Origin: Pseudomonadales bacterium
GTDB taxonomy: Bacteria > Pseudomonadota > Gammaproteobacteria > Pseudomonadales > JAHRWD01
Length of the DNA stretch: 38,209 nt
Assembly (NCBI GenBank): GCA_016763075.1
Contig: JAESUM010000088.1
Location: forward strand, 1 to 38,209
Direction of reading: 5' to 3'
The position numbers and the translations under genes were made by a program. Below, in pieces: positions 13,451 through 19,305 of the stretch; the first letter of the stretch is position 1, and the number at the start of each line of letters is the position of its first letter. The notes beneath the pieces are model-generated. The model did not search any database and had not been told where the DNA came from. It was given only the letters and a program-made list of their open reading frames with translations.

Positions 13451-16036
13451 ATGCGAATGGAAAAGTTAACCAGCAAACTTCAAACTGCAGTTTCCGATGC
13501 GCAATCTTTGGCGGTGGGTTTTGATAATAATTTGATCGAGCCCGTTCATCTAATTCAAGTGTTACTAAATCAACCCGGCGGTTCAATTCGTCCTTTGCTA
13601 ATGCAAACCGGCTTTGATGTGAAGGCACTGTCGCTTCAACTTAAAGATGCCATTTCACGCCTGGCGACCGTATTGGATCCCGAGGGTGATGTGGCGTTAT
13701 CTTCGGCATTGACGCAGCTGTTAAACCGGGCAGACAAACTCTCGCAAGAACGCAACGACCAGTTCATCTCAAGTGAGCTTGCGTTACTAGCCGCGATGAG
13801 CGACAAAGGCGATGCCGGAAAAATTTTGAATAGCTTTGGTGTAACGGCGCAGGCATTGAATGTCGCGATACAAAATATTCGTGGTGGAGACTCAGTGGAT
13901 AGCGCAAATCCAGAAGAGCAATACCAAGCGTTAGACAAATACACGTTAGATTTAACTCAGCGCGCCGAGCAAGGAAAGCTTGACCCAGTCATTGGCCGCG
14001 ACGATGAAATCCGTCGAACCATTCAAGTACTTCAGCGCCGCACCAAAAATAACCCCGTATTAATTGGTGAACCCGGCGTGGGTAAAACTGCAATTGTTGA
14101 AGGTTTAGCGCAACGCATTGTAAACGGCGAAGTGCCCGAAGGCTTAAAGCACAAACGGGTGCTGTCGCTAGATATGGGCGCACTGATTGCGGGAGCCAAG
14201 TTTCGCGGTGAATTTGAAGAGCGCCTAAAAGCAGTGCTTAAGGAGTTAGCAAAACTAGAAGGCAGCATCATTTTATTCATCGATGAAATTCACACCATGG
14301 TGGGTGCCGGTAAAGCAGAAGGCTCGATGGATGCCGGCAATATGTTAAAGCCAGCTTTAGCGCGGGGCGAGCTTCACTGCGTAGGTGCAACCACATTAAA
14401 TGAATACCGAACCGACATCGAAAAAGATGCGGCGCTTGAGCGGCGCTTTCAAAAAATAATTGTAGAAGAGCCTAGCGAAGAAGACACCGTGGCAATCTTG
14501 CGGGGCCTAAAAGGTCGGTACGAAGTACATCACGGCGTTGAAATTACCGACTCGGCAATTATTGCCGCAGCAAAGTTATCCCAACGATATATTACCGACC
14601 GCCAACTACCGGATAAAGCAATTGATTTGATCGATGAATCCGCTAGTAGAATTCGTATGGAAATTGATTCCAAGCCCGAAGTGATGGACCGTTTAGAACG
14701 ACGGCTAATCCAACAAAAAATTGAACGTGAAGCACTAAGAAAAGAAAAAGACCAGGCGTCCAAGCAGCGCCTTAATAAACTCGAAATGCAGATCAACGAA
14801 GTTGAACGAGAATTTTCAGACCTTGAAGAAATTTGGAATAGCGAAAAGTCATCGGTTCAGGGTGCACAGAAAATAAAATATAAACTTGAGTCTGCGCGAG
14901 ATGAGTTTGAAAGTTCTCGGCGCGCAGGCGACCTAGCGCGTATGTCTGAGCTACAGTACGGAGTTATTCCCAAGCTAGAAAAAAATCTTGAAGACAGTCG
15001 CAATGCAACGCAGCCAACCATGAAGTTACTACGCGACAAAGTAACTGAAGAAGAAATAGCAGAAGTGGTTTCGAAATGGACAGGTATTCCTGTTGCAAAA
15101 ATGCTTGAAGGCGAACGTGAAAAATTACTACGTATGGAACAGGAGTTGCATAAACGAGTAATAGGTCAGCAAGAAGCTGTTGTGGCCGTTTCAAACGCCG
15201 TGCGGCGTTCCCGTGCAGGACTATCTGACCCTAGTAGACCCAATGGTTCATTTTTGTTTCTTGGGCCAACTGGCGTGGGAAAAACTGAATTGTGTAAATC
15301 GTTGGCTACATTTTTATTTGATACAGAAGACGCAATGATACGCATCGATATGTCGGAGTTTATGGAAAAGCACTCTGTAGCGCGGCTAATCGGGGCTCCG
15401 CCAGGTTATGTGGGTTATGAAGAAGGTGGGTATCTAACCGAAGCCGTTCGCCGTAAACCTTATTCTGTTTTATTGCTCGATGAAATTGAAAAGGCCCATC
15501 CGGATGTATTCAATATACTACTGCAAGTGTTAGATGATGGGAGGCTAACCGATGGCCACGGTAGAACCGTTGATTTTAGAAATACCGTTATTGTCATGAC
15601 ATCAAACTTAGGGTCAGACTTGATTCAACAATTTACAGATGAAGCCGATTATGAGCAAATGCAAAGCGCCGTGATGGGTGTTGTTGGCCAGCACTTTAGA
15701 CCAGAATTTATAAACCGTATTGATGAAAGCGTGGTATTTCACCCGTTAGCAAAAGAACAAATAGCCGGTATAGCGCGAATTCAACTAAATAATCTGGGAA
15801 AACGTTTGGAAGAACGGGAATTGAAGTTTGAAATAACAGATGCCGCAATGCTAATGTTGGCAGATGTGGGTTTTGATCCAATGTTTGGAGCAAGGCCGTT
15901 AAAGCGAGCTATTCAAAAGCTTATTGAGAATCCTTTATCTCAAGATATCTTAAGTGGAAGGTTTATAGCAGGCGATACTATTTGTGCAGATTATATAAAT
16001 AATAAATTTGTTTTTGAAAAAAATAAAATTAGTTAG
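13451..16036 (+). CDS. clpB: ATP-dependent disaggregase ClpB (Hsp100)
   Basis: A hexameric AAA+ chaperone that works with DnaK to pull polypeptides out of aggregates. The start [20 protein letters not shown] matches ClpB N-termini, and AAGAGG lies 10 bases upstream. The Clp-N domain covers about 1-145. NBD1 has Walker A GEPGVGKT (206-213) and Walker B ILFIDE (274-279). A coiled-coil M domain covers about 410-525. NBD2 has GPTGVGKTE and [14 protein letters not shown] plus the GYVGYEEGG pore loop. There is no ClpP-binding tripeptide loop, as expected for a disaggregase. At 861 residues it is a normal length. It is expressed from the adjacent heat-shock promoter. Confidence 0.97.
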
Positions 16037-16611
16037 GAAGATAAAGATTGTTTGGGTTTGGCGCTATGTTTTGCGATTTTAGATGAGGGGCTGTTTGGGG
16101 TTTTATTATAAACATCGCTATTTCTAAAATTGCAGGCTGAATGCACGGTCGTAACATTTTGAACAACGCCATACTTTACATAAAAATCGGTTACTTTTAT
16201 AAATGCATTGCTTGAGTCATTCGGGCTTGCAACTTCTAATGCGACTATACGTATAGTGTTAAGCGAAGCCCATTTTGTTTTTTTTGATTTTCGTTTAAAA
16301 GTTAGCTCTATAACGGTATCTTCCTTGTCATCTTTTATAGCTGAAAAAACCAAGTACTGATCTGGAGCTAACTCGTCGTTATATTCATTAAGTTCTTCGC
16401 TTTTAATAGTTAAAGTTTTTGATTTTCTATCCCAGCTAAGATAGGAGGCCAATATGTTTTTTTGTTCATAGCCTACCATGTAAATGCGATCACAGAGCAA
16501 GTCAAAACTATCGGGGTACGCGCCGCTAACGGCCAACGAACTGTTGCTTAAACTTAGGCCAAATAACACCGGGAGAGCTAGCAGTATCTTCTTAATCATA
16601 TATCTTTTCAT
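16033..16611 (-). CDS. Hypothetical exported protein
   Basis: A 192-residue protein I do not recognise. The N-terminus ([20 protein letters not shown]) is a signal peptide with likely cleavage after SSLA (residue 27). The mature part is mostly beta-strand-like with two cysteines, Cys40 and Cys160, which could form a periplasmic disulfide. The C-terminal 25 residues are Lys/Ser/Pro-rich and probably disordered. Codon use is more AT-rich than in clpB. Its stop overlaps the clpB stop by 4 bases tail-to-tail, so the two genes converge with no room for a terminator. ATG codons at residues 1 and 5 are both possible starts. Confidence 0.65.
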
Positions 16612-16875: not shown

Positions 16876-19305
16876 ATGGACAGCATCCATTACCTATCAG
16901 GTTTAATTAAGCCGCGTTCAATAGCGGTTATTGGTGCCAGCGAAAACCTAACATCGGTGGGAGGTACCGTATTAAACAACCTTTTTGACGGAGATTATCG
17001 TGGTGCTATCTACCCCGTTAACCCGGCATATTCTGAACTGTTTAATCATCCCTGTTATGACTTCGTTAGCGAGCTTCCAGAGGCTCCGGACTTAGCGCTT
17101 ATCGCAACACCTGCCGCCGTTACAGCGAGTATAGTTCAAGAATGTGGCCGTAAAGGCATTCTTTCCGCGGTGATACTTTCAGCTGGTTCAGACGAATACT
17201 TGAAGAGCGAACACAACGCTGGGCTCATGGACGTTGCCAAAGAGGCGGGTGTTCGGTTACTAGGGCCCAATAGTTTGGGTGTTATACGCACCGATATTGG
17301 CCTGAACGCAAGTACCGGGCGCTGCGCAGTGCGGCGTGGTAATTTGGCTTTTGTCTCTCAGTCGGGAGCTATTTGTTCAGCCACCATTGATTGGGCTGAA
17401 ACCGCCGGTATTGGTTTTTCATCGATCATTTCGACTGGCAGCGGCAAGACCGTTGAAACCTGGGAAATTCTTGACTACTTAGTTAAAGATGACCAAACCA
17501 AAGGGGTTTTGATTCACCTTGAGCATATGACAAATACGCGCGAGTGGATCAGCTCATTACGTGCATTGGCTAGCGTTAAGCCGGTCATTGCAATTAAGTC
17601 CGGGCGTTTTGGCGTGAATCGGTATATCGACGATACCTTTATTCCTCGGGATCACCTTTTTAGCTCTATTCTTCGCCGTACTGGTGTAGTACGGGTCCAT
17701 TCGACAACCGAGCTGTTTAGCGCGGCTAAAACCCTGACCTCAAAGTATCGGCAATCTGGTGATCGGCTTGCGATTATCAGCAATGGCGACGGCCCGGCAG
17801 ATTTGGCGGCAGATAGAGTGCTTGAGCTGGGTTTAACCTTAGGTCAGGTTAGCGAACCGACCCGCGCTGCACTCGACCAGCAGCTACCTGATTTTTGTCA
17901 GCTAGATAACCCCATCTATATTCTGGCCGATGCAGATGCCCAGCGTTACCGTACGGCCATTGAACTGGCACTGGCAGACTCGAACATAGATGGCGTGTTG
18001 GTGATCGTGACACCTCAAGCAATGACGCCACTAAACGACATAGAGTCTGTTGTTATTGATATCGCCAGCAGCAGTACGAAGCCCTTGCTAGCGTGCTGGA
18101 TGGGCGAAACTTCAGTCGTGCAAAACCGTGCAAATTTGGGCGTTTCTCATATACCCGTGTTCCGTGATCCAGAAATGGCAGTGCGTGGTTTTGGTTATTT
18201 GGTTCAGCATCAGAAATCGCAACAATTGTTGCTGCAAACTCCGGGGCCAGAGGTTACTGCCTGGCAACCAGATACCCAACAAGCCCGCAAGTTAATTAAA
18301 AACGCCCAAAGCAGCCATCAACAACAGTTAGATCAAACGCAGTGCCAGCAACTGCTAGATTACTATCTCATTCAACGTGGCGAGCCCGATGCTGCAACAG
18401 GTAACCCCATTCCTGTACTGCAATTAATGGTTCGGCATGATCCAGGTTTTGGCCCGGTTATTTTGTTTGGCCCGCAAAGCCGGTGGAAAAAATCAGTAGC
18501 CGATCGTTTCAGTGTCGCGTTGCCGCCACTTAATGAAGAGCTTGCAATCGACCTTATTGAAAGCGCGCGGCTCGAAGCCGATTTCTCAAATTATATGGAG
18601 GCCATCACCACAGTGCTGGTGCATTTATCAGAAATGATCGTTGATCTACCGGAAATTAACGCAATAGATCTTTCGATGACGTTGATTGAAGGTAACGCAT
18701 ATATTGGTGAGCAAACGATTTCAATTACCACTGAAAAAGCGGCAACTAATTATCGCCACTTAGCGATCTACCCCTATCCAAAACACCTGATCACTCAGTG
18801 GGAATTACGCGACGGTATTATTGTCAACGTGCGACCAATCAGGCCCGCTGATGCAGAAATGGAACAGAAGTTTGTTCGCGGTTTGTCAGACGAGTCTCGG
18901 TATATGAGATTCTGGAGTTATATGTCAGAACTTAACCGTAAAATGTTGGCGGAGTTTACCAAAGTCGACTTTAACCGGCAGATGGCTTTAGTGGTAACGG
19001 TAGATCAAGAAATTAACGAAAAAATAGTTGAAACGGAAATTGCGGTGGCAAGTTTTGTGCTGTGCCAAGACCGAGAAAGGTGCGAGTTTGCAGTGGTGGT
19101 TGCAGATGACTGGCAAGGCTATGGGTTAGGGTATCGTTTAATGAACTACCTGATTGATGAAGCGCGCCGTTGGGGGCTTAAGAGCATCGATGGTGAAGTC
19201 ATGGGTCACAACGATGGCATGATGAAAATGATGAAAAAACTTGGATTTTCATCACGTTTTGATCCAGATGATTACAGTATAAAAATCGTTAGTAAAAAGT
19301 TATAA
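16876..19305 (+). CDS. Pat/YfiQ-like protein acetyltransferase (acyl-CoA-synthetase-like + GNAT) with a shortened ATP-grasp region
   Basis: Proteins of this type acetylate lysines of acetyl-CoA synthetase and other enzymes from acetyl-CoA. A CoA-binding domain (IKPRSIAVIGASENLTSVGG, 11-30) and succinyl-CoA-ligase-like domains (LAFVSQSGAICSATIDWAE, 157-175) are present to about residue 450. A C-terminal GNAT domain (about 652-805) has the acetyl-CoA loop WQGYGLGYRL at 746-755. Between them, the ATP-grasp part normally holding 'YPV-LK' and 'HKSDVGGV' motifs is missing: LLDYYLIQRGEPDAATGNPI (493-512) leads straight to LMVRHDPGFGPVILFG. At 809 residues it is about 75 shorter than E. coli YfiQ. 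Synthetase activity is therefore unlikely, while sensing by the CoA domains and GNAT activity may remain. Confidence 0.85.
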   Translation: MDSIHYLSGLIKPRSIAVIGASENLTSVGGTVLNNLFDGDYRGAIYPVNPAYSELFNHPCYDFVSELPEAPDLALIATPAAVTASIVQECGRKGILSAVILSAGSDEYLKSEHNAGLMDVAKEAGVRLLGPNSLGVIRTDIGLNASTGRCAVRRGNLAFVSQSGAICSATIDWAETAGIGFSSIISTGSGKTVETWEILDYLVKDDQTKGVLIHLEHMTNTREWISSLRALASVKPVIAIKSGRFGVNRYIDDTFIPRDHLFSSILRRTGVVRVHSTTELFSAAKTLTSKYRQSGDRLAIISNGDGPADLAADRVLELGLTLGQVSEPTRAALDQQLPDFCQLDNPIYILADADAQRYRTAIELALADSNIDGVLVIVTPQAMTPLNDIESVVIDIASSSTKPLLACWMGETSVVQNRANLGVSHIPVFRDPEMAVRGFGYLVQHQKSQQLLLQTPGPEVTAWQPDTQQARKLIKNAQSSHQQQLDQTQCQQLLDYYLIQRGEPDAATGNPIPVLQLMVRHDPGFGPVILFGPQSRWKKSVADRFSVALPPLNEELAIDLIESARLEADFSNYMEAITTVLVHLSEMIVDLPEINAIDLSMTLIEGNAYIGEQTISITTEKAATNYRHLAIYPYPKHLITQWELRDGIIVNVRPIRPADAEMEQKFVRGLSDESRYMRFWSYMSELNRKMLAEFTKVDFNRQMALVVTVDQEINEKIVETEIAVASFVLCQDRERCEFAVVVADDWQGYGLGYRLMNYLIDEARRWGLKSIDGEVMGHNDGMMKMMKKLGFSSRFDPDDYSIKIVSKKL

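Follow-up and report, generated by a model that had tools for sequence, protein, structure and literature searches.

The short-form pat gene and its deletion

The window, a stretch of 38,209 nucleotides from a Pseudomonadales bacterium, carries on its forward strand an ORF of 809 aa (16876-19305) that begins with ATG and runs without internal stops or frameshifts. The Pfam domain order and the whole-length fold match of its product agree with type I Pat/PatZ, and the ORF, Pfam, phmmer and Foldseek (to 9it0) results mark the protein as a short-form Pat, a type I GNAT lysine acetyltransferase. An ORF of 192 aa that starts like a signal sequence lies on the reverse strand (16033-16611) between pat and a ClpB-like gene; the sister species has a copy of it in the same place with 54% identity. 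Scans for regulatory signals around pat found 5 promoters with 5.5 expected, which is shuffle level, and 5 terminators with 3.4 expected, which is near shuffle level.

All features of the gene described below lie on the forward strand. The protein starts with a CoA-binding domain (CoA_binding_2, residues 14-137, 16915-17286; PF13380, E 6.6e-22), followed by a succinyl-CoA-ligase-like flavodoxin domain (Succ_CoA_lig, residues 154-287, 17335-17736; PF13607, E 2.2e-33) and a Ligase-CoA_2-like domain (residues 300-419, 17773-18132), whose PF19045 match of 21.4 bits is slightly below the cut-off of 23.7. The functional roles of the ligase histidine and of the ATP and metal residues are known from ADP-forming synthetases. 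At the position of the ligase phospho-His loop, the alignment shows HTGALxGSD in long relatives, the His of which we take to be the phosphorylated residue as in ADP-forming acyl-CoA synthetases, and DDTFIPRD (17629-17652), without His, in the window protein. The position of the ELDINPLL motif, presumably the metal site of the ligase, is occupied by INAIDLSM (18655-18678), without Asn. The C-terminal GNAT domain comprises residues 634-809 (18775-19302), with Pfam matches at about 651-792 (PF00583, E 3.6e-9) and a structure match to 4u5y. It has both marks of a type I GNAT, the catalytic glutamate and the Q/RxxGxG/A loop: Glu737 (19084-19086), invariant in a 55-row alignment, is the presumed general base. 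The sequence motif QGYGLG (19114-19131) represents the acetyl-CoA loop of GNATs as defined in PMC8556138.

The synthetase-like region of about 700 aa, which in E. coli includes a full ATP-grasp domain, is incomplete in the window protein, and the protein has neither the phospho-histidine nor the complete ATP-grasp domain with ATP lysine of ADP-forming acyl-CoA synthetases. Against TIGR02717 (NCBIfam acetate--CoA ligase alpha subunit), it scored 399.4 bits and E. coli PatZ 378.9, both under the curated cut-off of 567.15.

When the protein was compared with E. coli PatZ (9it0) by phmmer, residues 7-497 matched 6-493 of PatZ and residues 514-793 matched 584-865, leaving 16 residues (498-513) opposite 90 residues of PatZ (494-583, the first ATP-grasp half), a deficit of 74. 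In the alignment, this gap covers the ATP lysine of PatZ and its KSEVQGV loop. Of the 221 positions of the ATP-grasp_5 profile (PF13549), E. coli PatZ covers 1-220 and the window protein only 112-203 (E 1.2e-13), a match that corresponds to a retained second ATP-grasp half (residues 515-600, 18418-18675). The deletion is thus confirmed and in frame, with its junction at 18367-18414. A preliminary description of this DNA had placed at 18334-18480, an interval that includes the junction, an in-frame loss of some 70-80 residues carrying the ATP lysine and loop; phmmer and Pfam bear this out as a clean loss of about 75 residues. It also held that the core of the ATP-grasp domain was lost; the first half is indeed gone, but the window protein and all seven other short forms scanned still have the second.

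Elsewhere in the window genome (G000), PF13549 matched a frame of 393 aa that is full-length and lies close to a SucD-like match and, weakly (profile 8-53), a segment inside an ATP-grasp/LMW-phosphatase fusion; no complete ATP-grasp domain for Pat was found with this profile. Supply of the lost half in trans was also considered and rejected, because PF13549 found no dedicated stand-alone half in either of the two genomes of the genus.

A structure model predicted from 55 sequences (15 short, 40 long) had a mean pLDDT of 88.1 and a pTM of 0.85, with low confidence (pLDDT below 50) at residues 506-509 of the junction. Foldseek matched it to E. coli PatZ with E values of 9.8e-77 (9it0) and 5.4e-72 (9isq), and structure comparison with the two PatZ structures gave Z scores of 40.3 and 40.1 with 786 of 881 and 777 of 877 residues aligned. 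The shortened protein is therefore predicted with confidence to fold onto PatZ. In the model, a loop connects helix 487-496 directly to the strand that opens the kept half (514-522), a continuity that is expected for a clean excision.

Conservation in the sister species and the predicted target

The only other species of the genus compared (G001) has the same gene order around pat, and its copy of the protein is also 809 aa long, 79.7% identical and free of alignment gaps. For the whole gene, pN was 0.128 and pS 0.776; since pS is saturated, no single omega applies to the whole gene, and for residues 1-446 omega was about 0.05. Identity was 83% for residues 1-446, 58% for the junction stretch 447-513 (the least conserved), 70% for residues 514-625 and 86% for residues 626-809, the GNAT part being the best conserved. 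The gene is under purifying selection, and the earlier claim that intact GNAT and CoA-binding domains, as identified by Pfam, are maintained by selection agrees with this comparison.

In PMC8556138, the synthetase-like domains of type I enzymes are described as inactive, binding acetyl-CoA and regulating the GNAT, and the N-terminal region is stated to be required for the activity of PatZ and Salmonella Pat. The same text notes that the exact role of the synthetase-like region, kept as an acetyl-CoA sensor, is not fully understood. By analogy, the window protein would be an acetyl-CoA-responsive Acs acetyltransferase minus the ATP jaw. The preliminary description of it as a pure acetyl-CoA-sensing acetyltransferase is thus plausible as a prediction. 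The Acs of the window genome is 63% identical to E. coli Acs and contains the PKTRSGK site; on the same analogy Acs is the likely target of the window GNAT, with other substrates possible.

We propose that the window protein is a type I Pat that acetylates Acs, senses acetyl-CoA and carries a dead ligase domain trimmed of one ATP jaw, and we assign this reading a probability of roughly 0.78. The ancestor would have been an ADP-forming acyl-CoA synthetase fused with a GNAT domain. In the window lineage, the synthetase chemistry would have gone with the loss of the phospho-histidine, and the first ATP-grasp jaw, with its ATP lysine and HKSDVGGV-type loop, would have been excised in frame, so that ATP is, as we propose, no longer held. 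The CoA-binding/flavodoxin scaffold that remains most likely serves as an allosteric sensor by binding acetyl-CoA, and the GNAT at the C-terminus most likely acetylates the lysine of PKTRSGK in Acs, which would shut down acetate activation at high levels of acetyl-CoA. The analysis shows the anatomy of the protein, its conservation and selection, the recurrent loss, the predicted fold and the presence of Acs with its site; we infer the enzyme activity, the target, the sensing of acetyl-CoA and the absence of ATP binding.

A search for a SIR2 deacetylase, for which the control was positive in 10 of 14 known genomes, found none in the two genomes of the genus, so that the classical Pat/CobB pair is incomplete. 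Each genome has one HDAC-family protein (G000:C34:4524-5390 and G001:C18:33370-34236), which could be the eraser partner or could act on other acetylated compounds. The missing sirtuin would also fit a GNAT that has been retargeted away from Acs, with the leftover ligase part serving as an oligomerisation scaffold only. In the trees, the branch leading to the window pair is long, with 1.25-1.6 changes per column, and the remnant and junction evolve faster than their neighbours, so that the remnant may be no more than a spacer. We nevertheless consider retargeting unlikely: conservation is highest in the GNAT and CoA-binding parts, the PKTRSGK site of Acs is intact, and the modelled GNAT superposes on that of S. 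lividans PAT (4u5y) with a Z score of 26.0 and an rmsd of 1.4 for 165 residues; the S. lividans domain was co-crystallised with the C-terminal domain of an acetyl-CoA synthetase.

Short and long forms among relatives

Relatives were collected by an order search (390 genomes, 153 matching at E 1e-30) and a class search (369 genomes, 89 at E 1e-60). Full-length ORFs from the best 30 loci of each search and from chosen regions were aligned, together with E. coli PatZ, in 90 rows, from which L012_1 and L012_2 (one gene in two frames), L011 (cut at a contig end), L053_1 and L017_1 (repeats of L005 and L052) and ORFs below 700 aa had been dropped. In the interval of PatZ 494-583, 25 of the 90 rows were short (14-21 residues) and 65 long (89-98), with no intermediates. 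The short rows belong to the window genus (2), f26/g26 (15), f30 (2), f40/g40 (1), f15 (2, in two genera), f114 (1) and f207 (2); a scan of named proteins showed f26 to be Marinomonas-like. The GNAT glutamate is present in 88 of the 90 rows, including all 25 short ones; the other two, both long, are without those columns (L049 has no GNAT and L097 is cut at a contig end).

The deletion is neither unique to the window genome nor universal in the family, since 65 of the 90 aligned relatives keep the segment. Because 25 of the 90 share the deletion, we file the window protein as a Pat variant and not as a typical member. The preliminary description of an architecture reduced compared with known Pats was right in direction but too narrow, for these 25 relatives, in at least four lineages, are alike, and the contrast with known Pats is made smaller by E. 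coli PatZ, which is already without the ligase catalytic histidine.

Among the best 80 of 574 named proteins, 14 were short and 66 long; the 14 are no frequency, because the scan was queried with short forms and only the best 80 were kept. They comprise eight Marinomonas, Pusillimonas, Neopusillimonas, three betaproteobacterial or unclassified proteobacterial MAGs and one MAG labelled Legionella, and 7 of the 80 were identical to rows of the first set. E. coli PatZ as the query of a phylum-wide search matched 116 of 398 genomes at E 1e-100; this query and limit favour E. coli-like long forms, and no short GNAT-bearing frame was among the matches listed. A plasmid search gave 508 records, 81 of them with at least 80% query coverage. 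One genome (G456, f114) contains both a short Pat (L056) and a long Pat (L085), possibly a natural comparison pair. The Pat-like gene at L012 extends over two ORFs (frames of 609 and 503 aa, with 45% and 47% identity to the window protein); it may be a split gene, a frameshift or an assembly error.

Trees were built with the deletion interval excluded from the alignment. The short rows are long branches, and most trees were quick ones with SH-aLRT support only, a 25-row tree being made with a careful method. The 78-row tree (which omits L049, L097, L016 and 9 of the 15 f26 rows) required six changes between long and short, four of them forced by starred branches; a 43-row tree required five, with four forced, and a 53-row tree including named rows required six, with five forced. 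On these trees, at least four long/short changes appear to have occurred, with the short form in at least four separate lineages, and a single origin is rejected.

The boundaries of the deletion are nearly identical: in all eight short forms scanned, the remnant starts at ATP-grasp_5 profile position 107-113, and in two long forms the profile matches run from 2 to 221 and from 1 to 220; among these matches, that of L007 is below the curated cut-off. Such uniformity would be expected if the short form had arisen once in an old ancestor and the subfamily had spread by descent or gene transfer, without repeated excision. A clade of the window, f30 and f26 rows is also compatible with the data (p 0.33), and the loss in the window lineage may therefore be common to those two groups. 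As an account of all short forms, however, one origin is very unlikely, since forcing 13 short rows (against 30 long) into one clade cost 553 log-likelihood units (p-AU 8.5e-47), a clade of the window with f40/g40 was rejected (p 0.0019), the f15 short rows lie within an E. coli-like group beside a long member of their own family (SH-aLRT 99), and four or five changes are forced. An assembly error of the metagenome bin or a decaying pseudogene, as the 95 contigs of the window genome and the long branch of the window pair might suggest, is hardly credible against the gap-free copy of equal length in a second species, the purifying selection, the 86% identity of the GNAT, the ORF without a stop, the identical cut in at least three other lineages and the confident predicted fold.

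The repetition of the same cut in related bacteria suggests that the first ATP-grasp half is dispensable for acetyltransferase work. The short Pat is a variant of type I Pat that is real, inherited and recurrent. Among the titles and abstract beginnings listed from the open PMC literature, none dealt with a Pat with a truncated ATP-grasp domain.

Loss of ligase motifs and comparison with known systems

The ligase-loop His was found in 51 of the 90 rows, all of them long, and was missing from all 25 short rows and from 14 long rows. In ten of these 14, the ATP lysine or the loop was also substituted; the other four, which retain both by the criterion used, are E. coli PatZ, L050, L085 and L086. 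Full-size ATP-grasp segments (96-98 residues) in which the His and the KSDVGGV loop are substituted, for example by RWRGV, occur in the long Pats L036, L037, L038, L039, L040, L044, L051 and L087 (groups f5, f6, f19, f36, f37 and f38). The metal-site Asn was lost in 13 of 16 short rows (kept in L006, L009 and L056) and in 4 of 62 long rows. In the named set, the His was present in all 66 long proteins and absent from 13 of the 14 short ones, so that over both samples 38 of 39 short rows are without the phospho-histidine. The losses of the ligase chemistry and of the ATP jaw thus appear to coincide. A sign test of His loss against deletion over independent pairs gave a median p of 0.25; with only 4-5 supported pairs, too few for significance, the link rests on the counts. 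The one exception is the short Pat of the MAG labelled Legionella (L127:3001-5427), which has HTGHLISED with the His; His loss is therefore not a strict precondition, and excision can come first.

We tentatively suggest, as a possible but doubtful scenario, that Pats have repeatedly shed the same ATP-grasp jaw at nearly the same boundary in a stepwise convergent reduction of an active ligase-acetyltransferase fusion, with the phospho-His lost first, followed by decay of the ATP motifs or excision of the entire ATP-binding half, and that an enzyme responsive to ATP and acyl-CoA would so have come to respond to acetyl-CoA only. If this is true, the ATP-grasp half of E. coli-type Pats serves in regulation (by nucleotide), a role abandoned in the short forms. 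The short forms are natural deletion experiments on the synthetase-like region, marking a dispensable part (the first ATP-grasp half) against an indispensable one (the CoA-binding part and the second ATP-grasp half), and by comparing them with long forms, what the ATP-grasp half does in E. coli PatZ can be tested directly.

The long relatives that keep the His (51 of 65) include L010, L054, L055 and L057-L082, and in the 78-row set the ATP motif (lysine and loop) was kept in all 48 rows with the His. Many type I Pats may therefore be active ligase-acetyltransferase fusions, unlike PatZ, and with so many long relatives having full ligase motifs, the picture of a dead enzyme may not fit all type I proteins. 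The long gammaproteobacterial Pats L058 and L054 share with the window protein the architecture, 42-43% identity and a conserved GNAT, but unlike it they have the His of HTGALVGSD, the ATP lysine, KSDVDGV and ELDINPL all intact. Judged by these motifs, such a long Pat may combine a still-active ligase with a GNAT.

ADP-forming acyl-CoA synthetases such as 8wzu and 4xz3 are enzymes with an ATP-grasp domain and a phospho-His. The fold of residues 4-617 of the window protein matches that of the 4-hydroxybutyryl-CoA synthetase 8wzu (Z 44.5, 594 aligned), and residues 6-457 match ckcACD1 (4xz3, Z 45.5). Unlike these synthetases, the window protein has neither a full ATP-grasp domain nor a phospho-His, and it has an added GNAT domain.

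E. coli PatZ/YfiQ (886 aa; 9it0, 9isq) resembles the window protein in domain order and fold (Z 40), with about 33% identity, and likewise has no phospho-His but does have the GNAT glutamate and loop. It differs in having the full ATP-grasp domain (profile 1-220) with the lysine and KSEVQGV, from which the window protein is short by 74 residues; in place of the metal-site Asn, missing from the window protein, PatZ has His. The short Pats of Marinomonas (for example M. fungiae L106 and M. communis L107) are like the window protein in their 16-residue interval and in having neither the His nor the metal-site Asn. At about 32% identity between the g26 rows and the window protein, the loss may be shared by the two (p 0.33).
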